IMG/VR virus record: IMGVR_UViG_3300035183_000286
Span: 1-39,608 of that record
Origin: a virus
DNA: 39,608 nt
Direction: 5' to 3' (one strand)
Part shown: positions 4,311 through 11,087 of the stretch, in pieces
Numbering within the stretch: position 1 is the first letter of the stretch
How the letters are laid out: every line of letters begins with the position of its first letter
Made by a program: the position numbers and the translations under genes
The notes under the pieces: generated by a model
Seen by the model: the letters and a program-made list of their open reading frames with translations, nothing else
Told to the model about the DNA's origin: nothing
The model's database searches: none

Positions 4311-4673
4311 TCACCGCTTCCTCCTGTTCCCAAAGGCCCCATCCAGTGCCGCCGCCTCGCTCGAATTGCACTGACGGCAGCTGCCGACAAGGTTCCGCAT
4401 TGTGTTCTTCCCGCCGCTCTTCCTGGGTATAATATGCGCCGCTGTGGTCGATCGCGCGCCCGTGCAGATGCGCCGCAGCCGGCAGATCGGGTCGCGCTTG
4501 AGCACCTTGGCCCGCACCACCTCCCAGCGCCCGTCCCCGTCATCCTGATCATACCCACGGTCGCGGAAGTGCGGCCGCGCCTTCCGCGCCTGGTCCTCGC
4601 GGCGATGCACGGGGCAGGGTGCGAGGCGTCGGCAGCCCGAATGCGAGCACGGTCGAGGCAGTCTATCCGGCAT
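4311..4673 (-). CDS. HNH endonuclease next to terminase
   Basis: A 120-residue protein starting at ATG 4673 (a TTG-type extension to 4709 is possible). It has an N-terminal zinc-type cluster (C-x4-C-x5-C around residues 9-20) and a core HNH motif, with AAHIIPRK as the first H and CRQCNSS as the metal-binding end. Such nucleases beside terS/terL are known to assist specific DNA cleavage during packaging in HK97-like phages. It overlaps the preceding gene by 11 nt and is separated from terS by the GC-rich candidate packaging region, which fits that role. Confidence 0.85.
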   Translation of the reverse strand: MPDRLPRPCSHSGCRRLAPCPVHRREDQARKARPHFRDRGYDQDDGDGRWEVVRAKVLKRDPICRLRRICTGARSTTAAHIIPRKSGGKNTMRNLVGSCRQCNSSEAAALDGAFGNRRKR

Positions 4674-4926
4674 CGTCTTCCCATGTCTCGACCCGGAGCC
4701 ACGCCCCACACCGGCGATCGGGGCACCGGGTCAGATGAACGCTGGCCGGGGCTGGCCTCGCGTCGGGCGCGTCGGCGCCCTGTAGGCACACGCGAGCCCG
4801 TCCGCGTCTTCCCATTTGGCCGATCGGCGTATCGCAGTGTCGGGCAGGCAAAGACGGATGCGATGCGGGACAGCGCATCAACTCTCCCGGACCATAATTC
4901 CGGCACACACAGGCGGCGGCTGTCAT
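4663..4926 (-). CDS. Cys-rich small protein, probable zinc binder
   Basis: An 87-residue protein from ATG 4926 carrying eight cysteines, including CVCRNYG near the N-terminus, HCDTPIG in the middle and a C-terminal CPDRRCGAWLR knuckle. The C-terminus looks like a small zinc ribbon of the kind that gives a second mRNA- or DNA-contact module. No family was recognised. It overlaps the HNH gene by 11 nt and its start lies on the stop of an interrupted micro-ORF (4923..5000). Confidence 0.65.
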   Translation of the reverse strand: MTAAACVCRNYGPGELMRCPASHPSLPARHCDTPIGQMGRRGRARVCLQGADAPDARPAPASVHLTRCPDRRCGAWLRVETWEDDAG

Positions 4927-5074: not shown

Positions 5075-5293
5075 TCAGACATCGGGCAGTCCCTCCGTGA
5101 TGAACCGCACCATCGCCTCCGCCTGGATCGCGGTGAGCAGGTTGGTCCCGACCGAGTCGCGCCGATACTCGTACTCGGTGCCTACGTTGCCAATCGGCCC
5201 GGCGTAGCTAATCCCACCATCCGGGTTGAAGTCGGCAGGCAGCTTCCACTGAAGGAAGCGGTCCACCATGTGCTTGATCTGCTGTTCCGTCAT
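5075..5293 (-). CDS. Conserved phage small protein (WKLP-DF-PDGG type)
   Basis: A 72-residue protein from ATG 5293. It contains HMVDRFLQWKLPADFNPDGG followed by a short segment ending in GTNLLTAIQAEAMV. This MVDRFLxWKLPxDFxPDGGI pattern is familiar from small proteins of many phages and prophages, where it has no assigned function. The start overlaps the previous gene's stop by 4 nt, so it is translated in the same accessory operon. Confidence 0.8.
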   Translation of the reverse strand: MTEQQIKHMVDRFLQWKLPADFNPDGGISYAGPIGNVGTEYEYRRDSVGTNLLTAIQAEAMVRFITEGLPDV

Positions 5294-5811
5294 TCCCTTC
5301 CTCCGTTCGCCAGCCGGGCCGCATTGATGGCATCGGGGGCGCCTGCGGGTAGGGCGGCGCGGGCCGCAGTCGTGGACGGAGAGTCGCGATAGCAGAAATC
5401 CGCTTCGCATTCCGCGCAGATGCACTCGGCACCCGTCTCGCAGTAGCGCCCTGGCCCGACCGGTGTCTGCACCACGACGCCGAGCCGCTCTGCCTCGTCC
5501 TGAATGTCGCCGCCATCCCAATCGCCGCCTTCGCGGCATGCTTCCAGCGCCTTGAGGCCGAGCAGGGCCAGCGGGGCTAGCGCCTCCCGGAGCCGGGCCA
5601 GCTCCGCCCGGTCGCGCTCACGCTCGGCCAGCAGGGCGGTGAGCCGGTCCAGCAGGGCCGCTTTCGCCGCCTCAGCCCGATCCGCCTTCGCGTGGTCGAA
5701 GTCGCGCCGCTCAGTCGTGACGCCCAGCTCGAAGCCCGCTTGGCACAGTTGCAGGACGAGCTTCTCCAGCGCGGCCCGGACCGCGTCCACCGGGGCGGGG
5801 CTAGTCGGCAT
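5290..5811 (-). CDS. Coiled-coil protein with Cys cluster
   Basis: A 173-residue protein from ATG 5811. The first 100 residues are helical and highly charged (an Ala/Glu/Arg/Leu-rich stretch), typical of a coiled coil. The second half has the cysteine cluster CETGAECICAECEADFC, suggesting a metal site. Function not recognised. It overlaps the upstream gene by 11 nt and the downstream gene by 4 nt. A scaffold or regulatory role is possible, but nothing in the sequence decides it. Confidence 0.7.
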   Translation of the reverse strand: MPTSPAPVDAVRAALEKLVLQLCQAGFELGVTTERRDFDHAKADRAEAAKAALLDRLTALLAERERDRAELARLREALAPLALLGLKALEACREGGDWDGGDIQDEAERLGVVVQTPVGPGRYCETGAECICAECEADFCYRDSPSTTAARAALPAGAPDAINAARLANGGRE

Positions 5812-5971
5812 GGGCCTTCCCCTCGCATTCATCGCAGCGCACCGGCTCGATTGGTTCGGGCGGGAACGGGGAGAGTTGGGCAAGTCCGATGAACCAGCGC
5901 CCCGCCCGCAGCCCGAACCAGCGGGCCGTCTGTGCCGTGACTACCACTTCCACCTTCAGTTCCTTTGCCAT
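5801..5971 (-). CDS. Small conserved-type phage protein (56 aa)
   Basis: Begins at ATG 5971 with MAKELKVEVVVTAQTARWFG and ends with a CDEC knuckle followed by a polar tail. It is likely one compact beta-rich fold; no function recognised. The start lies inside the end of heptad-repeat gene 1 (16 nt overlap) and its stop overlaps the coiled-coil gene by 11 nt, so it belongs to the same transcript. Confidence 0.65.
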   Translation of the reverse strand: MAKELKVEVVVTAQTARWFGLRAGRWFIGLAQLSPFPPEPIEPVRCDECEGKAHAD

Positions 5972-6477
5972 GCGTTCGTCCCCCCTGCCGGTGTCAGCGC
6001 CGCAAACGTCTGTGGAGGTGTGGTCCCCAGCGTGCAGGTGTCGCCGTGCCATGCCACCGTCACATTGCCGCACTCCGCCAGCACGGCGTTGAGCCATACG
6101 AGCTGGCCCTCGGCCCGGAGCGTGGCGCCCTCGGCCCGGAGCTTGGTGCCCTCGGCCCAGAGCTTGGCGCCCTCGGCGTGGAGCGTGGTGCCCTCGGCCC
6201 AGAGCTTGGTGCCCTCGGCGTGGAGCTTGGCGCCCTCGGCGTGGAGCTTGGCGCCCTCGGCGTGGAGCTTGGCGCCCTCGGCCCGGAGCCTGGTGCCCTC
6301 GGCACAGAGCTTGGTGCCCTGGGCCCGGAGCTTGGTGCCCTCGGCCCAGAGATCGTCGCCCTCGGCCCGGAGCTTGGTGCCCTCGGCCCAGGGCTTGTCG
6401 CCCTCGGCCCAGAGCTTGTCGCCTTCAGCATGGACCCGTGCCCGTTCCTGCCAGGCCTGCGTCAGTCGGTCACTCAT
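5956..6477 (-). CDS. Heptad-repeat protein 1 (16 repeats)
   Basis: A 173-residue member of a five-gene family. Layout: a fixed N-terminus MSDRLTQAWQER, 16 tandem 7-residue units of the form [ADTS]-K-L-[WRHCY]-A-E-G (residues 13-124), then a fixed C-terminal module (LVWLNAVLAECGNV, then a WHGDTCTLG segment). Here the tail is extended by 13 residues. The DNA repeats every 21 bp with almost no silent variation. Function unknown; no signal peptide or membrane segment. The Shine-Dalgarno site (AGGGGAG) and start region are shared with the paralogues. Units 6-8 (TKLCAEG, TRLRAEG, AKLHAEG) recur as a block in protein 4. Confidence 0.8.
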   Translation of the reverse strand: MSDRLTQAWQERARVHAEGDKLWAEGDKPWAEGTKLRAEGDDLWAEGTKLRAQGTKLCAEGTRLRAEGAKLHAEGAKLHAEGAKLHAEGTKLWAEGTTLHAEGAKLWAEGTKLRAEGATLRAEGQLVWLNAVLAECGNVTVAWHGDTCTLGTTPPQTFAALTPAGGTNAWQRN

Positions 6478-6495
6478 GCGTCTCCCCTGTCGGTG

Positions 6496-7005
6496 TCAGC
6501 CGCGCGCCCCGGACCCGAACACCACCATGGCGGACGGGAAGGGTGCGCCGGTTCGTGCATCGCCAAACTTGAGGCGGCCCCGGATAAAGGTGATCTCCCC
6601 CTTCATCGCATAGTCGTGCCACCATGCGGTGTCGGTGCGAGCCGGAACAAGGCAGACCACCTTGCAGCCGCGCCGCGACTCCTCCAGCGCCTTTGCCATC
6701 CACGCACCGATCGTCTCACCGTAGGGCGGATTCATCCAGCAGCGCGGCCCATCGGCTAGCCAGTCGCGCGTAAGGCCGTCCTCCTCTACGGTGTAGAACT
6801 TGGGGCGCTTCGCGTTTGCCTCGCTGGCGCACACGTCTAGATCGAACGGGCCGTGCTGTTCCGCCAACTCGCGAAAGGTCCGCATCGGCGTAGCCCAATC
6901 GTCCGTCGCCGACGAGAACGCCACGCGCCCCAGAAGTCGTTCATGCCCTGTCCCCCCCGTATCCCGGAAGGTCGGCTGGTAGTACCTCGGTAATGCTGCG
7001 CTCAT
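6496..7005 (-). CDS. DNA N6-adenine methyltransferase (phage Dam family)
   Basis: A 169-residue protein of the phage N-6-adenine methyltransferase family, which transfers a methyl group from S-adenosylmethionine to adenine in DNA. From about residue 30 it reads FSSATDDWATP, then FDLDVCAS, and the catalytic NPPYG at 92-96; the C-terminus ends in the usual FPSAMVVFG strand. The first seven residues (MSAALPR) are identical to the start of the WPTP protein encoded inside the cytosine methyltransferase gene, because the DNA upstream is a duplicate of that region, so the N-terminus is chimeric. A native start near residue 30 is possible. Confidence 0.88.
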   Translation of the reverse strand: MSAALPRYYQPTFRDTGGTGHERLLGRVAFSSATDDWATPMRTFRELAEQHGPFDLDVCASEANAKRPKFYTVEEDGLTRDWLADGPRCWMNPPYGETIGAWMAKALEESRRGCKVVCLVPARTDTAWWHDYAMKGEITFIRGRLKFGDARTGAPFPSAMVVFGSGARG

Positions 7006-7213
7006 CCACCTCCCCAGGCGCGATCAGGTGGTCTTGCCATCAGCTCCCGCAACCAGGCCGCGCGGGCAAACGGGTCGAACTCGTTGTAGTAGGCGCTCAT
7101 CGGTGTCAGCGCCCAAACGTCTGCGGCGGCTCGGTGCCCAGCGTGCAGGTGTCGCCGTGCCATGCCACCGTCACATTGCCGCACTCCGCCAGCACGGCGT
7201 TGAGCCATACGAG
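6984..7213. repeat. Direct repeat, copy A (methyltransferase 5' end plus heptad-gene 3' end)
   Basis: About 230 bases closely matching 9925..10150. It contains the last 36 codons of a heptad-repeat gene, a short spacer and the first codons of the cytosine methyltransferase and of the WPTP frame. Differences include a 3-bp insertion and a 1-bp insertion that breaks the methyltransferase frame in this copy. Confidence 0.85.
7002..7100 (-). pseudogene. Truncated duplicate of cytosine methyltransferase N-terminus
   Basis: From ATG 7100 it reads MSAYYNEFDPF, then AWLRELMA, matching the first 21 residues of the intact methyltransferase at 10037. An extra A in the ATGGCAAGACC segment (intact copy ATGGCAGACC) then shifts the frame, which stops at 7002. 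The duplicated region continues in the other frame as the start of the Dam gene. It is a recombination scar, not a functional enzyme. Confidence 0.8.
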
Positions 7214-7441
7214 CCCGCCCTCGGCCCAGAGCTTGGAGCCCTCGGCCCGGAGCTTGTCGCCCTCGGCCCAGAGCTTGGCGCTCTCGGTGTAGAGCTTGGC
7301 GCCCATGGCCCGGAGCTTGTCGCCCTCGGCGTAGAGCTTGTCGCCCTCGGCCCGGAGCTTGTCGCCCTCGGCCCGGAGCTTGTCGCCCTCGGCCCTGAGC
7401 CGTGCCCATTCTTGCCATGCCTGCGTCAGCCGGTCACTCAT
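7106..7441 (-). CDS. Heptad-repeat protein 2 (9 repeats)
   Basis: A 111-residue paralogue from ATG 7441. It has the same 12-residue N-terminus (one change, W for R at residue 12), nine units (mostly DKL[RYW]AEG, two degenerate: DKLRAMG and AKLYTES), then the conserved C-terminal module. The two degenerate units make this the most decayed array. It overlaps by 4 nt the stop of the frameshifted modification-type gene upstream and is followed by the truncated methyltransferase copy. Confidence 0.8.
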   Translation of the reverse strand: MSDRLTQAWQEWARLRAEGDKLRAEGDKLRAEGDKLYAEGDKLRAMGAKLYTESAKLWAEGDKLRAEGSKLWAEGGLVWLNAVLAECGNVTVAWHGDTCTLGTEPPQTFGR

Positions 7442-7987
7442 GCGCCCCCCCCGTATTCGGCCTTGCCCCGTGCCCCCCGGACCTTCGGGGCGCTCATTGC
7501 CCGCACCGGCCCGAAGCGGGTCTGCCATGCCTCCGTCACGCCGCCCGTTCCCGGATAAAGATCATCGAACGTGTCCCCCTCGCGTGCGCCAAGCAGTTCA
7601 AACAGCCACAGGTTGAACGCGGCGGGTTTTGCGCCTGACAATCCGCGTTGCAGCGTAATATTGGCGCTCACCCAGTCCCGTACCGTGGGCCGGTCCCGCT
7701 CCCCACTTCGCGCCGGGCTGTAGATCACCGGCTCCCACGCATACGCCGGGTTGACGCCCGGCTTGAATGACGCGAACGGCTTCACCCACGCCGCGACCCG
7801 TGCGCCCTCTGGCGCGAGCGGCAAGAATTACCCGGAGGCTGGGCGAGCTGAGCGAGAGCGCCCAGCCGTGGTACTCGGCCAGCGTCCGGAACAGGTCCGC
7901 ATGATCGACCTCGGCGCAGCGCGGGTCGTGCGCGTAATGCTTCCGCGCCTGCCCGAGATAGGGCGGATCGGCGTAGGCGAGCCTCAC
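7438..7987 (-). pseudogene. Phage DNA-modification-type protein, split by a +1 frameshift
   Basis: Two frames join into one protein of about 182 residues. The first part (GTG 7987) starts RLAYADPPYLGQARKHY and runs to SPSLRVIL; the second, in another frame, continues PLAPEGARVAAWVKPFASFKP and ends with a DLYPGTGGVTEAW motif. The combined protein resembles a family of phage proteins with a DPPY motif, probably methyltransferase-related. The shift lies at about 7820..7830, where ATT CTT GCC must be read with one base skipped. This could be a sequencing slip, a decayed gene or genuine slippage on CTT. A second +1 site on CTT exists at 17339. Confidence 0.7.
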
Positions 7988-8042
7988 CGTGCGGTCCCCC
8001 CGCGCCCGGCCCGACGCGCGGGGGTCAAGCGACCAGGCCCCT

Positions 8043-8070
8043 TGCGCGATGAGGGCAATTGCCCTATACT
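8043..8070 (+). promoter_or_regulatory. Plus-strand promoter with palindromic operator
   Basis: TTGCGC (8043..8048), 16-base spacer, TATACT (8065..8070). Between and overlapping them is the perfect 14-bp palindrome AGGGCAATTGCCCT (8052..8065); half of it recurs downstream as AGGGCAAT (8083..8090). The arrangement suggests repression by a dimeric DNA-binding protein, plausibly the HTH protein encoded by the second gene of this cassette. Confidence 0.65.
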
Positions 8071-8118
8071 TATGGCGTGTTCAGGGCAATCCCGCCCGAC
8101 CTCAAAAGGAGTCACCCT

Positions 8119-8400
8119 ATGCCGTTCCAGCCCCGCCCCAACGCCCTGTATCTCTGCGACAACGGTCAGTGCCTGTGCGGCCTGCATTTGGGGTCGAGCG
8201 CCAAGCATACCGGCCACGACATCAGCGGACAGGCGATCTACCAGATTCAGCCCCGTGACCATGAGGTCGGTACCCCACCGTTCAAGTGTGAATCCTGCGG
8301 CGCCACGTTCGGCCGCTCGGTCAAGGCCGGAGTAATCCGCCCCGTACTGGTCCGCTACAAGGCCAAGGGAAATACCGATGTCTTCGACTACGCCTCCTGA
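8119..8400 (+). CDS. Zinc-ribbon-like protein, first gene of plus-strand cassette
   Basis: A 93-residue protein from ATG 8119 with a good AAGGAG site 8 bases upstream. It has an N-terminal CDNGQCLCG cluster (residues 13-21) and a central CESCG knuckle, so probably a zinc-binding fold; no family recognised. It is one of very few genes on the plus strand, set between two minus-strand modification genes, with its own promoter and operator. That makes it look like an independently expressed cargo (moron) or a regulatory pair with the overlapping HTH gene. Confidence 0.75.
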   Translation: MPFQPRPNALYLCDNGQCLCGLHLGSSAKHTGHDISGQAIYQIQPRDHEVGTPPFKCESCGATFGRSVKAGVIRPVLVRYKAKGNTDVFDYAS

Positions 8401-8566
8401 CCTGCTGCGCCGTGCCATCGAGGCCAGCGGCATGAGCGCCCGCCAGTATGCGGCCACGGTGCTGCTGCGCGACGAGCGCACCGTCCGGCGGTGGTTAGCC
8501 GGAGACTCACCCATCCCTGAGCCCGTCGTCCAATTCCTCAAGCGCCCTCCTGAGCGCCCCGACTAG
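8378..8566 (+). CDS. Small HTH DNA-binding protein
   Basis: A 62-residue protein from ATG 8378, overlapping the upstream gene by 23 nt. Residues 8-52 fit a helix-turn-helix of the Cro/CI or YdaS-like type: an LLRRAIEASGMSARQYA first helix pair, then RDERTVRRWLAGDSP as recognition helix and turn. It probably regulates transcription; the palindrome at 8052..8065 is the obvious candidate operator, giving autoregulation. The stop codon lies in a hairpin shared with the convergent cytosine methyltransferase end. Confidence 0.75.
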   Translation: MSSTTPPDLLRRAIEASGMSARQYAATVLLRDERTVRRWLAGDSPIPEPVVQFLKRPPERPD

Positions 8567-10037
8567 GGGCGCTTCTCACGTCAAGGTACGCTTCGATGAA
8601 CGCCGCGGCGACTTGCGGGACGATAGCATTCCCCGCACCCCGCAAGAGGCCCACGCGATTCGGCACGGCATGGGCTAGCGGGCTCAGTGCACTCACCGTG
8701 AATCCGTGCGCGTCAAGAGCCATGATGAGCCGACCTTGACCTTTTTTGCCAAGGGATCGCCAAACCGAATCCGCCGGGAGTTGTGTGTCCAGCACAGCCC
8801 GAGCTTCTGGGCAGGCTTCTCGCAATGCAGACAGGGCTTGCGTTGTCCGGTCGTCTTGTCGAAGTGCGGCGAATGCACCAGCCGATGACAGGAGGCGCAC
8901 AAGGTTTGCAGATTCGCCGGCGCGTTGTTCATCGGGTTCTCGTCCCGGTGATGGACATGCCGCTTCCTGGTTGAGCCGCATATCTCGCTGCCCATCTATC
9001 GCCCTCTCTTTCGTGTCACGCGCGTCCCCGCCAGCGACCATTCGGGCGGGTAGCCCATCAGATACAGACTGAAGTACGGCGAGAGTTGGCCGCGCTTTCC
9101 CGTCAGCGCAGGGGAGCCAGACGGCGGAGGACCAGAAACCAGCGCCACCGTCTTGCGGCTGCTGTCCGTGTTCCCCGCCGGGTTGTAGTCCTCCGTCTCC
9201 GGTGAGCCCGCCATCGGCGTCGGCCAGCCCGCCAAGCTGCTCGCCTGCCCCAGCGTCAGGCCGAACCCGTTCCCGTTCCCGTACTTCGCCTTCAACGCCT
9301 CCCGGCGCTCCTGCCAGGTCGTATCCCCATCGTTCTGCGGCCCGGCATTCGGCGTCGGCCAGCCGCTCACGACCTGCCACACCTGGCGCCCCAGCTTCGT
9401 GTCGCTGGTCCGAGGACTCGGCCAGCTCGCCAGGTGGGCTACCTGCTCGGTTGTCACCGTCGCCTTGGTGGCGTCCGGTCGCCGCCCCGTGGCGCTCGTT
9501 CCCTCGGGCCACGTCTGCCCGCCGCTCGGAGTTGTCGGACTCGGCCACGAACCACAGCCGTTGTCGGCGGTGGAACCCGCCGACGCTGTGTGCGCCCAAT
9601 ACGGTCGCCCCAACGGCGTAGCCTTCGCCTTCCAGGTCTGCCGAAACAAGGTCGAGCCAGCCGTGGCCAATCGCGCTTTCAACCTGCTCGCCAAAGACTG
9701 TGACAGGGCGGCACTCGCGGATGAGCCGAAACCATGCGGGCCAGAGATGCCGAGGGTCAGCGCCGGCCTCCCCTTTGCCAGCCGCACTGAACGGCTGACA
9801 GGGGCAGCTCCCGGTCCAGACGGGTTGGTCCTCAGGCCAGCCGGCGAGCCGTAGGGCGTAGCTCCATCCCCCGATGCCAGCGAAGAAATGGCATTGCGTG
9901 TATCCCACAAGGTCGCTTGGCTGGACCTCGGTAATGCTGCGCTCATCCACATCCCCCGGCGCGATTAGGTGGTCTGCCATCAGCTCCCGCAACCAGGCCG
10001 CGGCAAACGGGTCGAACTCGTTGTAGTAGGCGCTCAT
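8538..10037 (-). CDS. DNA (cytosine-5) methyltransferase
   Basis: A 499-residue enzyme from ATG 10037. It has motif I FFAGIGGWSYALRLAG (51-66), catalytic loop GSCPCQPFSAAG with Cys80 (motif IV), motif VI-like FGEQVES (115-121), motif VIII HRRQRLWF (157-163) and motif X RGAGNAIVPQ near the C-terminus. The region between motifs VIII and X, where target recognition is expected, is Gly/Asp/Arg-rich and unusual because the same DNA carries two other frames (8996..9946 and 8693..8995). It probably protects phage DNA or modifies regulation. It follows heptad-repeat gene 3, whose stop is 5 bases upstream. Confidence 0.92.
   Translation of the reverse strand: MSAYYNEFDPFAAAWLRELMADHLIAPGDVDERSITEVQPSDLVGYTQCHFFAGIGGWSYALRLAGWPEDQPVWTGSCPCQPFSAAGKGEAGADPRHLWPAWFRLIRECRPVTVFGEQVESAIGHGWLDLVSADLEGEGYAVGATVLGAHSVGGFHRRQRLWFVAESDNSERRADVARGNERHGAATGRHQGDGDNRAGSPPGELAESSDQRHEAGAPGVAGRERLADAECRAAERWGYDLAGAPGGVEGEVRERERVRPDAGAGEQLGGLADADGGLTGDGGLQPGGEHGQQPQDGGAGFWSSAVWLPCADGKARPTLAVLQSVSDGLPARMVAGGDARDTKERAIDGQRDMRLNQEAACPSPGREPDEQRAGESANLVRLLSSAGAFAALRQDDRTTQALSALREACPEARAVLDTQLPADSVWRSLGKKGQGRLIMALDAHGFTVSALSPLAHAVPNRVGLLRGAGNAIVPQVAAAFIEAYLDVRSAPSRGAQEGA
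8553..8573 (+). terminator. Hairpin between convergent genes
   Basis: AGCGCCCC (8553..8560), loop GACTA, GGGGCGCT (8566..8573), followed by TTCTC on the plus strand. It ends the plus-strand cassette and overlaps the HTH stop codon; the convergent methyltransferase stops at 8538. The T-run is short, so strength is uncertain. Confidence 0.5.
8693..8995 (-). CDS. HNH endonuclease encoded in a second frame of the methyltransferase gene
   Basis: A 100-residue frame from ATG 8995, directly after the TAG of the WPTP frame, with GAGAGGG upstream. It has a clear HNH core: CGSTRKRHVHHRDENPMNN, then NLQTLCASCHRLVH, and a second CxxC pair (CLHC, C-TH) that would complete zinc binding. Such small HNH proteins nick or cut DNA and often travel as homing-type elements. 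It lies wholly inside the C-terminal part of the cytosine methyltransferase gene, in another frame of the same strand. The matched metal ligands argue that it is real rather than a shadow. Confidence 0.75.
   Translation of the reverse strand: MGSEICGSTRKRHVHHRDENPMNNAPANLQTLCASCHRLVHSPHFDKTTGQRKPCLHCEKPAQKLGLCWTHNSRRIRFGDPLAKKVKVGSSWLLTRTDSR
8996..9946 (-). CDS. WPTP-motif protein overlapping the methyltransferase frame
   Basis: A 316-residue frame from ATG 9946 (a second ATG two codons upstream), same strand as the methyltransferase but another frame. It resembles a protein family seen with phage cytosine methyltransferases: STLFRQTWKAKATPLGRPYW near residue 105, repeated W-[PS]-[TS]-P segments (SWPSP twice, GWPTP twice) and a C-terminal LYLMGYPPEWSL. 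I know no established function. Family recognition is from memory. Where this frame reads GWPTPMA the enzyme frame reads LADADG, so both are constrained by the same bases. The HNH frame follows immediately. Confidence 0.65.
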   Translation of the reverse strand: MSAALPRSSQATLWDTRNAISSLASGDGATPYGSPAGLRTNPSGPGAAPVSRSVRLAKGRPALTLGISGPHGFGSSASAALSQSLASRLKARLATAGSTLFRQTWKAKATPLGRPYWAHTASAGSTADNGCGSWPSPTTPSGGQTWPEGTSATGRRPDATKATVTTEQVAHLASWPSPRTSDTKLGRQVWQVVSGWPTPNAGPQNDGDTTWQERREALKAKYGNGNGFGLTLGQASSLAGWPTPMAGSPETEDYNPAGNTDSSRKTVALVSGPPPSGSPALTGKRGQLSPYFSLYLMGYPPEWSLAGTRVTRKRGR

Positions 10038-10150
10038 CGGTGTCAGCGCCGAAACGTCTGCGGCGGCTCGGTGCCCAGTGTGCAGGTGTCGCCGTCCCAT
10101 GCCACCGTCACATTGCCGCACTCCGCCAGCACGGCGTTGAGCCATACGAG
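9925..10150. repeat. Direct repeat, copy B (intact heptad-gene 3' end plus methyltransferase 5' end)
   Basis: Counterpart of 6984..7213. Here the methyltransferase frame is intact. The heptad-gene 3' portion (about 110 bases) is also shared with the other three heptad genes, giving five homologous recombination targets in 6 kb. Confidence 0.85.
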
Positions 10151-10336
10151 CTGGCCCTCGGCCCAGAGCTTGTCGCCCTCGGCCCAGAGCTTGGCGCCCT
10201 CGGCCCAGAGCTTGGCGCCCTCGGCCCGGAGCTTGGTGCCCTCGGCCCAGAGCGTGGCGCCCTTGGCCCAGAGCGTGGCACCTTCAGCACGGAGCCGTGC
10301 CCGTTCCTGCCAGGCCTGCGTCAGTCGGTCACTCAT
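10043..10336 (-). CDS. Heptad-repeat protein 3 (7 repeats)
   Basis: A 97-residue paralogue from ATG 10336. It has the 12-residue N-terminus, seven units dominated by Trp at the fourth position (ATLWAKG, ATLWAEG, AKLWAEG twice, DKLWAEG), then the C-terminal module with WDGDTCTLG. Its start overlaps the stop of heptad gene 4 by 8 nt and its end is 5 bases from the methyltransferase start, so the three are co-transcribed. Confidence 0.8.
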   Translation of the reverse strand: MSDRLTQAWQERARLRAEGATLWAKGATLWAEGTKLRAEGAKLWAEGAKLWAEGDKLWAEGQLVWLNAVLAECGNVTVAWDGDTCTLGTEPPQTFRR

Positions 10337-10817
10337 GCGTCTCCCCTGTCGGTGTCAGCGCCGCAAACGTCTGCGGCGGCTCGGTGCCCAGCGTGCAGGT
10401 GTCGCCGTGCCATGCCACCGTCACATTGCCGCACTCCGCCAGCACGGCGTTGAGCCATACGAGGTCGCCCTCGGCGTAGAGCTTGGAGCCCTCGGCCCGG
10501 AGCCTGGTGCCCTCGGCACAGAGCTTGGCGCCCTCGGCCCGGAGCGTGTCGCCCTTGGCCCAGATCTTGGCGCCCTCGGCACAGAGCTTGTCGCCCTCGG
10601 CGTGGAGCTTGGCGCCCTCGGCCCGGAGCCTGGTGCCCTCGGCACAGAGCTTGGTGCCCTCGGCCCAGAGCTTGGCGCCCTCGGCCCAGAGCTTGTCGCC
10701 CTCGGCGTGGAGCTTGTCGCCCTCGGCCCGGAGCGTGGTGCCCTCGGCCCAGAGCTTGTCGCCTTCAGCATGGAGCCGTGCCCGTTCCTGCCAGGCCTGC
10801 GTCAGTCGGTCACTCAT
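10329..10817 (-). CDS. Heptad-repeat protein 4 (15 repeats)
   Basis: A 162-residue paralogue from ATG 10817 with AGGGGGA upstream. Fifteen units follow the fixed N-terminus; two triplets are alike (TKLCAEG-TRLRAEG-AKLHAEG and AKLCAEG-TRLRAEG-SKLYAEG), the first shared with protein 1. This shows growth by duplication of multi-unit blocks. The C-terminal module is followed by a 10-residue read-out into the next gene's start. Confidence 0.8.
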   Translation of the reverse strand: MSDRLTQAWQERARLHAEGDKLWAEGTTLRAEGDKLHAEGDKLWAEGAKLWAEGTKLCAEGTRLRAEGAKLHAEGDKLCAEGAKIWAKGDTLRAEGAKLCAEGTRLRAEGSKLYAEGDLVWLNAVLAECGNVTVAWHGDTCTLGTEPPQTFAALTPTGETHE

Positions 10818-10835
10818 GCGTCCCCCTTGCCGGTG

Positions 10836-11087
10836 TTAGCGCGCAAACGTCTGCGGCGGCTCGGTTCCCAGCGTGCAGGTGTCGCCGTCCCATACCACCG
10901 TCACATTGCCGCACTCCGCCAGCACGGCGTTGAGCCATACGAGCTGGCCCTCGGCGTAGAGCTTGGCGCACTCGGCCCAGAGCTTGTCTCCCTCGGCGTG
11001 GAGCTTGGCGCCCTCGGCCCAGAGCTTGGCACCTTCAGCATGGAGCCGTGCCCGTTCCTGCCAGGCCTGCGTCAGTCGGTCACTCAT
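10836..11087 (-). CDS. Heptad-repeat protein 5 (5 repeats)
   Basis: The shortest paralogue (83 residues, ATG 11087): N-terminus, five units (one ending AEC instead of AEG), and the C-terminal module with one change (VVWDGD). With its siblings it shows that protein length is set almost entirely by the number of 21-bp units: 48 residues plus 7 per unit. It follows the PD-(D/E)XK-like nuclease gene by 18 bases. Confidence 0.8.
   Translation of the reverse strand: MSDRLTQAWQERARLHAEGAKLWAEGAKLHAEGDKLWAECAKLYAEGQLVWLNAVLAECGNVTVVWDGDTCTLGTEPPQTFAR

Follow-up and report, generated by a model that had tools for sequence, protein, structure and literature searches.

Five paralogous heptad-repeat proteins with two variable positions per unit in a tailed phage

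The IMG/VR virus record IMGVR_UViG_3300035183_000286 (positions 1 to 39,608, analysed as a whole and called the window here) encodes five paralogous proteins built largely from tandem seven-residue units, KLxAEGx, in which the third residue (x) and the seventh (b) vary and the others hardly change. This is a previously undescribed, predicted helical protein, present in five copies in the window phage; no paper on the heptad family was found in the literature.

Genes at the locus

The five genes and the linker that they share are as follows.

5956..6477, minus strand: heptad gene p1, 173 amino acids (aa), 16 units, 13-aa read-out tail
6475..6502, minus strand: shared linker CTGACACCGACAGGGGAGACGCATGAG, with the previous gene's stop, the ribosome-binding site and the p1 start
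7106..7441, minus strand: heptad gene p2, 111 aa, 9 units
10043..10336, minus strand: heptad gene p3, 97 aa, 7 units
10329..10817, minus strand: heptad gene p4, 162 aa, 15 units, 9-aa read-out tail
10836..11087, minus strand: heptad gene p5, 83 aa, 5 units

A first-pass annotation had proposed five heptad genes with shared termini and 52 units. The open reading frames (ORFs) are present at these coordinates and codon-by-codon parsing reproduced the unit counts (16 + 9 + 7 + 15 + 5 = 52). All five proteins follow one plan: a 12-residue N-terminus, MSDRLTQAWQE[R/W], is followed by the heptads and then by a 36-residue C-terminal module. The length is exactly 48 + 7n residues in p2, p3 and p5 (111, 97 and 83 aa), whereas p1 (173 aa) and p4 (162 aa) are longer by read-out tails of 13 and 9 residues. 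These tails arise because a 1-nucleotide (nt) insertion (TTTGCGGCGCTGA compared with TTTGCGCGCTGA) shifts the frame so that the stop is missed and the ORF runs on into the linker, which contains the ribosome-binding site of the next gene. The p2 start region differs from the other copies at 4 of 36 nt and residue 12 of this protein is W, a correction to the first-pass annotation.

Neighbouring heptad genes abut or overlap. The overlap between p4 and p3 is 8 nt, with the p4 stop inside the p3 start (ATGAGTGA). A Shine-Dalgarno sequence of the AGGGGAGA/GGGGGG type precedes each of the five genes and near-identical copies of the linker precede p3, p4 and p5. Antisense ORFs of 264-406 aa overlie the heptad gene DNA. 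They result from the 21-base-pair (bp) period and are not the coding frame, since it is in the AEG frame alone that the termini are conserved among relatives.

Variation within the arrays

The K, L, A, E and G positions are fixed at 89-97% over 474 units. Position x is occupied by R, W, Y, C or H and rarely by Q, K, S or N; acidic residues are excluded and aliphatic or small ones are almost absent. Position b is mostly D, N, S, A or G, with T found too.

Apart from the x and b codons, the DNA of the units in one array hardly differs, even at synonymous sites. The mean heterozygosity within arrays was 0.101 at four-fold sites; at x (codon positions 1-2) it reached 0.394 and at b 0.454. The value for x exceeded the synonymous one in 40 of 42 genes (Wilcoxon p = 2e-8), the diversity being about four times the synonymous level. 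The internal units of the window read CTC-xxx-GCC-GAG-GGC almost invariantly, with TGG, CGG, CAC, TGT or TAC at x, and both the four-fold sites beside x and the CpG at the GCC-GAG junction are nearly invariant in them. Selection for several versions at once had been proposed from the number of genes in the window. The replacement excess at two codons within arrays supports selection for differing versions; copy number alone is not the evidence for it.

In any one phage a given x residue is nearly always encoded by one codon (98% of pairs), and the codon chosen differs between phages. Neighbouring units are uncorrelated at x, and b and x are weakly associated within a unit. The use of one codon per residue together with the lack of correlation between neighbours indicates, therefore, that old letters are being shuffled and that the differences are not fresh mutations.

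The possibility that the arrays are the target of a diversity-generating retroelement was considered and rejected. No reverse transcriptase (PF00078) was found in 34 records, several of which may be fragments, although controls were detected, and in its absence no such retroelement is indicated. The x codon is also almost wholly [TCA][AG]N, so the all-four-base (A-to-N) variation of these elements is not seen. A CpG-deamination hot spot created by a C5-methyltransferase was rejected as well: the CpG at GCC-GAG is untouched and most relatives are without the enzyme.

Array turnover

The C-terminal module DNA of p2 and p4 is identical (0 of 99 nt differ) and their arrays cannot be aligned. In contig G032 the two ends hold 9- and 14-unit versions of what is apparently one gene, with flanks identical for 124 and 127 nt; two tandem paralogues are also possible. 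A common assembly k-mer is 127, and overlaps near this length are as expected if two array alleles had formed an assembly bubble. A viral scan for further alleles returned only G032 itself. Fourteen contig ends fall inside a heptad gene against about 1.5 expected, although no exact repeat in a complete array exceeds 94 nt. The excess is inflated by sampling via the gene itself and maybe by arrays with longer repeats that were left unassembled. Array turnover is fast relative to that of the termini.

Both ends of the 61.8-kilobase (kb) contig 3300032516_000022 (L025/L045) stop within one heptad array, have 118 nt in common and then diverge. Judged from the sequence, this is likely to be another array polymorphism or an internal duplication.

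Register and predicted structure

The spacing from the W of the N-terminal cap to the G of the C-terminal module (the tail) is 7n+2 in 37 of 38 cases overall, comprising all 30 complete genes measured and 6 of 7 further genes (L048 deviates). It is kept in a copy whose heptads have decayed nearly beyond recognition, and an array-less form described below has a spacing of 16 (7x2+2). Exact 21-bp gains alone would keep the register in perfect arrays only, whereas an unbroken helix explains it in both perfect and decayed ones.

AlphaFold2 models (family alignment, monomer) had a mean predicted local distance difference test score of 93.5 for p3 and 89.7 for p4, and showed a pair of helices joined by a turn at the middle unit, followed by three short strands. 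The protein is thus confidently predicted to be a rod of helical repeats that carries a beta head at its C-terminus. The turn lies exactly in the middle unit in both models (4 of 7 in p3, 8 of 15 in p4); a mid-array hairpin was not supported by tests of mirror pairing or of odd and even unit numbers. Foldseek returned only generic helical hairpins and no relative below E 0.1. We assign the register as Leu at d, Gly at a, E at g and x at e, a reading of the sequence that agrees with the alignment to streptococcal M6 discussed below.

Relatives in other genomes

IMG/VR was scanned at the DNA level for three consecutive KLxAEGx units, with x, b and third codon bases left free (except R at Lys and Glu). 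This gave 37 loci, nearly all of which encode the same architecture, and a search with a profile of the tail added further contigs. The W..R cap, KLxAEGx heptads and conserved tail occur together on more than 40 uncultured viral contigs. These relatives were found via the heptad pattern; many of the records are fragments of uncertain completeness. A search for relatives with the window's own termini found none, and the heptad DNA pattern was required. The aligned tails have the consensus (I/V)(I/L)E.(Y/H)GN(I/V)..EW..C.L.(N/T)GE.(Y/F), and W9, W121, W136 and C141 are conserved at 90% or more in the family alignment.

Complete family proteins are of about 60-200 aa and consist of repeats and small termini only. 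Their unit number runs from none (array-less) to about 21, with both ends conserved. Several members occur together at L042 and L092 (three each), at L039 and L091 (two each) and possibly in G032. The paralogous family with conserved termini that had been proposed is real, homologues exist in many phages, multi-copy sets recur and the possibility of no homologues anywhere is excluded. The phage of locus L069 has two extra heptad proteins, at 1116-1487 and 5282-5743 on the minus strand of L092 (G041:C1:1500-8500), with termini (...LRADGVLVPDLPWDGVRLVFEETS) unlike those of the main family. Their sequences suggest that heptad arrays may have been swapped onto other tails.

Outside the repeats the family is covered by no Pfam or PHROG model. 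No Pfam family scored above its cut-off for the heptad proteins; the TubC_N docking domain (PF18563) was rejected, having reached at best 23.2 bits over 18 residues, below the gathering cut-off of 26 bits. PHROG matches were confined to the heptads and the best E for the C-terminal module was only 0.012. The same heptad pattern found no family member in GTDB species genomes, the one match (L046) being a false positive in a Shewanella fatty-acid-synthase-type protein. Matches in plasmids were to heptads only, in unrelated proteins.

Among 50,697 phage records the sole tail match was the circular metagenomic podovirus ctKR88, MW202524 (three records of equal length and source). Its member is a 62-residue ORF in which the cap is joined to the tail without an array (MKSKIAKKETTLLLNFAWWVRMKLWAQAIIAAHSNIKLEW..ECHLETGEVFIP). 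The core protein is, therefore, the cap plus the tail as one unit, with the array as an expansion that separates the two. The family would escape annotation because this sole tail-module relative among annotated phage records is an unannotated, array-less copy in a metagenomic genome. In the public phage genome MW202524.1 (L083 3938-5343) the ORF lies where about 1.4 kb is free of genes.

The heptad genes of the relatives sit in the early DNA-metabolism region, among replication and recombination genes. Their neighbours are helicases, RecT/Bet/ERF annealing proteins, methyltransferases, ParB-like proteins, exonucleases and RusA/RuvC. No neighbour gene is conserved across the relatives; few clusters are shared, and these loosely. 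The window comes from a tailed phage and encodes a tape measure and a phage major head protein. Its heptad genes have the early genes on one side and the terminase on the other and lie outside the tail module.

Comparison with known systems

The best PDB sequence-profile match was the streptococcal M6 coiled coil (PDB 9mmx; E = 1.6e-5, larger alignment). M6 has the same Leu-at-d heptads with a non-hydrophobic a position, but the match spans heptads only, cap and tail are not in common, and M6 is a surface protein rather than a phage early protein. PHROGs 13113, 3671, 9071 and 25468 hold KLxAEG-like helical repeats, and 21 of 39 members match 13113. All four are repeat-only and without function, and none matches the conserved C-terminal module. 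Tail spike or fibre proteins of Flavobacterium phage immuto and Verrucomicrobia phage P8625 have 30-40% identity over the heptads but are long, structural and without cap or tail module.

In the fungal HNWD receptors, WD40 repeats are kept alike by concerted evolution while a few codons are under diversifying selection, and accurate reconstruction of the genes from Illumina-based assemblies is impossible (PMC12222747). The heptad genes resemble these NOD-like receptors (NLRs; Podospora het-d/het-e; PMC12222747, PMC1805685) in their near-identical repeat DNA, few hypervariable codons and varying unit number, and in arrays that break short-read assemblies. High internal conservation, in the sense of low synonymous divergence between units combined with hypervariable codons, is found in both. 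The heptad genes differ in having 7-residue helical units instead of WD40 blades, in being phage genes and in the absence of any NLR, signalling or death domain (no NACHT/STAND architecture is present). By this analogy we regard HNWD as the closest parallel in mode of evolution, a likeness of process and not of homology or membership.

Interpretation

Our preferred reading, to which we give a probability of roughly 0.4, is that the heptad protein is an early, variable-surface coiled-coil putative binding protein that evolves by unit shuffling and selection for diversity. It would be a small cytoplasmic protein made from the early (DNA-metabolism) region of the phage. Its sequence shows an N-terminal cap helix (W..R), an array that keeps its 7-residue register throughout and, at the C-terminus, a short conserved module. 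Close packing of the helices, with themselves or with a partner, would follow from Leu at d and Gly at a, and x (position e) and b would be left as an exposed, variable stripe. A small set of unit letters would be continually copied and reshuffled by recombination, with units gained and lost and neutral differences erased, and selection would retain differing x/b combinations. Selection for diversity on an exposed stripe would hence point to recognition of variable partners, and near-identical repeats with two changing positions are elsewhere associated with proteins that recognise many different partners. The most likely role would be that of an adaptor or inhibitor binding diverse or fast-changing partners (host, defence or rival phage proteins), several paralogues perhaps giving several specificities at once. 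Host or defence proteins are the first candidates because of the early-region position.

Some points weigh against this reading. The array-less member means that arrays are dispensable for the role of the core. Because the units of an array are not independent, the contrast between replacement and synonymous diversity serves as an index of selection and does not amount to a fitted dN/dS or omega. Some mutational bias contributes, as the x set consists mostly of one-step transitions ([TC][AG]N, 433 of 474). The net charge of a unit is near neutral, and the mid-array hairpin of the AlphaFold2 models may be an artefact that arises when a repeat is modelled as a monomer.

The variation at x and b could, alternatively, be an internal address code, by which near-identical coils pair only in the correct register and with the correct paralogue and no foreign partner is involved. 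The predicted register puts x (e) and E (g) beside the Leu/Gly face, the 7n+2 spacing is strict and the arrays of one phage have letters in common in differing order, all as such self-assembly would have it. Close relatives should then conserve the code, yet p2 and p4 differ fully in their arrays despite identical C-terminal modules; the same diversity is found in single-copy phages and there is no mirror or neighbour correlation, so we consider this unlikely. Rather improbable, too, is a role as spacer or ruler, in which the arrays set the distance from cap to beta head and nothing but unit number matters. The wide range of unit numbers, with ends conserved and register kept, would suit such a device, but it leaves the four-fold excess of diversity at x and b unexplained and sits poorly with a three-fold difference in unit number inside one genome.

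Near-neutral or selfish turnover, in which replication slippage in an early-region gene is tolerated and x and b are unconstrained, would account for 21-bp units in tandem, for x changes that are mostly transitions and for the existence of degenerate copies. Unconstrained sites should, however, match the synonymous rate, not exceed it four-fold. The near-invariance of the four-fold sites beside x and of the GCC-GAG CpG in internal window units, the restricted residue set at x and a spacing that survives heptad decay likewise argue against it, and we give it only a slight chance. Binding of nucleic acid, with x (R, W, Y, H, K, Q) reading successive positions at one residue per repeat, for example as a cofactor to recombination or methylation enzymes encoded nearby, is suggested by an x repertoire rich in nucleic-acid-contacting residues and by the DNA-metabolism genes nearby. 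It is hardly more credible, given near charge-neutral units, AlphaFold2 models without a superhelical solenoid and no Foldseek relative within the limit given above. A coiled-coil component of the virion or tail fibre seems very improbable: the tblastn matches are indeed to spike and fibre proteins from the tails of Flavobacterium and Verrucomicrobia phages, but they span heptads only, and the gene lies among replication and recombination genes in relatives and between early genes and terminase, not in the tail module, in the window. Nor do the heptads belong to a long fibre protein or to a tail gene module, as would be expected of a trimeric fibre or adhesin stalk.

As far as is known, diversification of phage proteins by design is mainly the work of diversity-generating retroelements and of phase or tail-fibre switching. 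The heptad pattern points to another route, in which units are shuffled within a very small helical array while two positions are under selection. It is possible, if doubtful, that phages carry in these genes a modular recognition repertoire: homogenised heptad arrays with two hypervariable positions per unit, reshuffled at the population level and multiplied as paralogues, which would produce new binding surfaces by recombination without a retroelement, as a viral counterpart of the fungal high-internal-conservation receptors.

Neighbouring genes

The methyltransferase features that lie between the heptad genes are as follows.

6496..6945, minus strand: N6-adenine methyltransferase (PF05869 Dam), a neighbour; start approximate
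6945..7105, minus strand: truncated C5-methyltransferase 5' end (MSAYYNEFDPFA..WLRELMA), the duplicated flank downstream of p2
8538..10037, minus strand: C5-cytosine methyltransferase (PF00145), a neighbour
9880..10042, minus strand: flank downstream of p3 that matches the one after p2 and holds the 5' end of the C5-methyltransferase gene, here intact

The first-pass annotation had linked the heptad genes to these enzymes, and the link did not hold. A downstream flank of about 100-160 bp, including the 5' end of the C5-methyltransferase gene, is common to p2 and p3. The interleaving is, therefore, the result of a local segmental duplication in which p2 travelled with a gene fragment. The C5-methyltransferase was found in only 3 of 34 records tested, and a partnership with the heptad proteins was rejected on both grounds. 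An integrase was found in 6 of 34 records. Relatives found via the window's neighbour gene or terminase (L084-L089) have no heptad gene.

Other features were noted in passing. An adenine-methyltransferase-like reading with a YADPPYLG motif (window 7438-7987) appears to be split over two frames, in ORFs 7598-7987 and 7438-7824, possibly as a frameshifted gene, and neither half has a Pfam match. An HNH endonuclease (PF01844) lies at 4311-4709, and an HNH-like ORF at 8693-8995 lies within the C5-methyltransferase ORF in a different frame. A related phage (L086) encodes at 9135-9638, on the plus strand, a replication-like protein with different, proline/glycine-rich peptide repeats (..GNPDKSPRGFSGEPRQIPAGILRG..).

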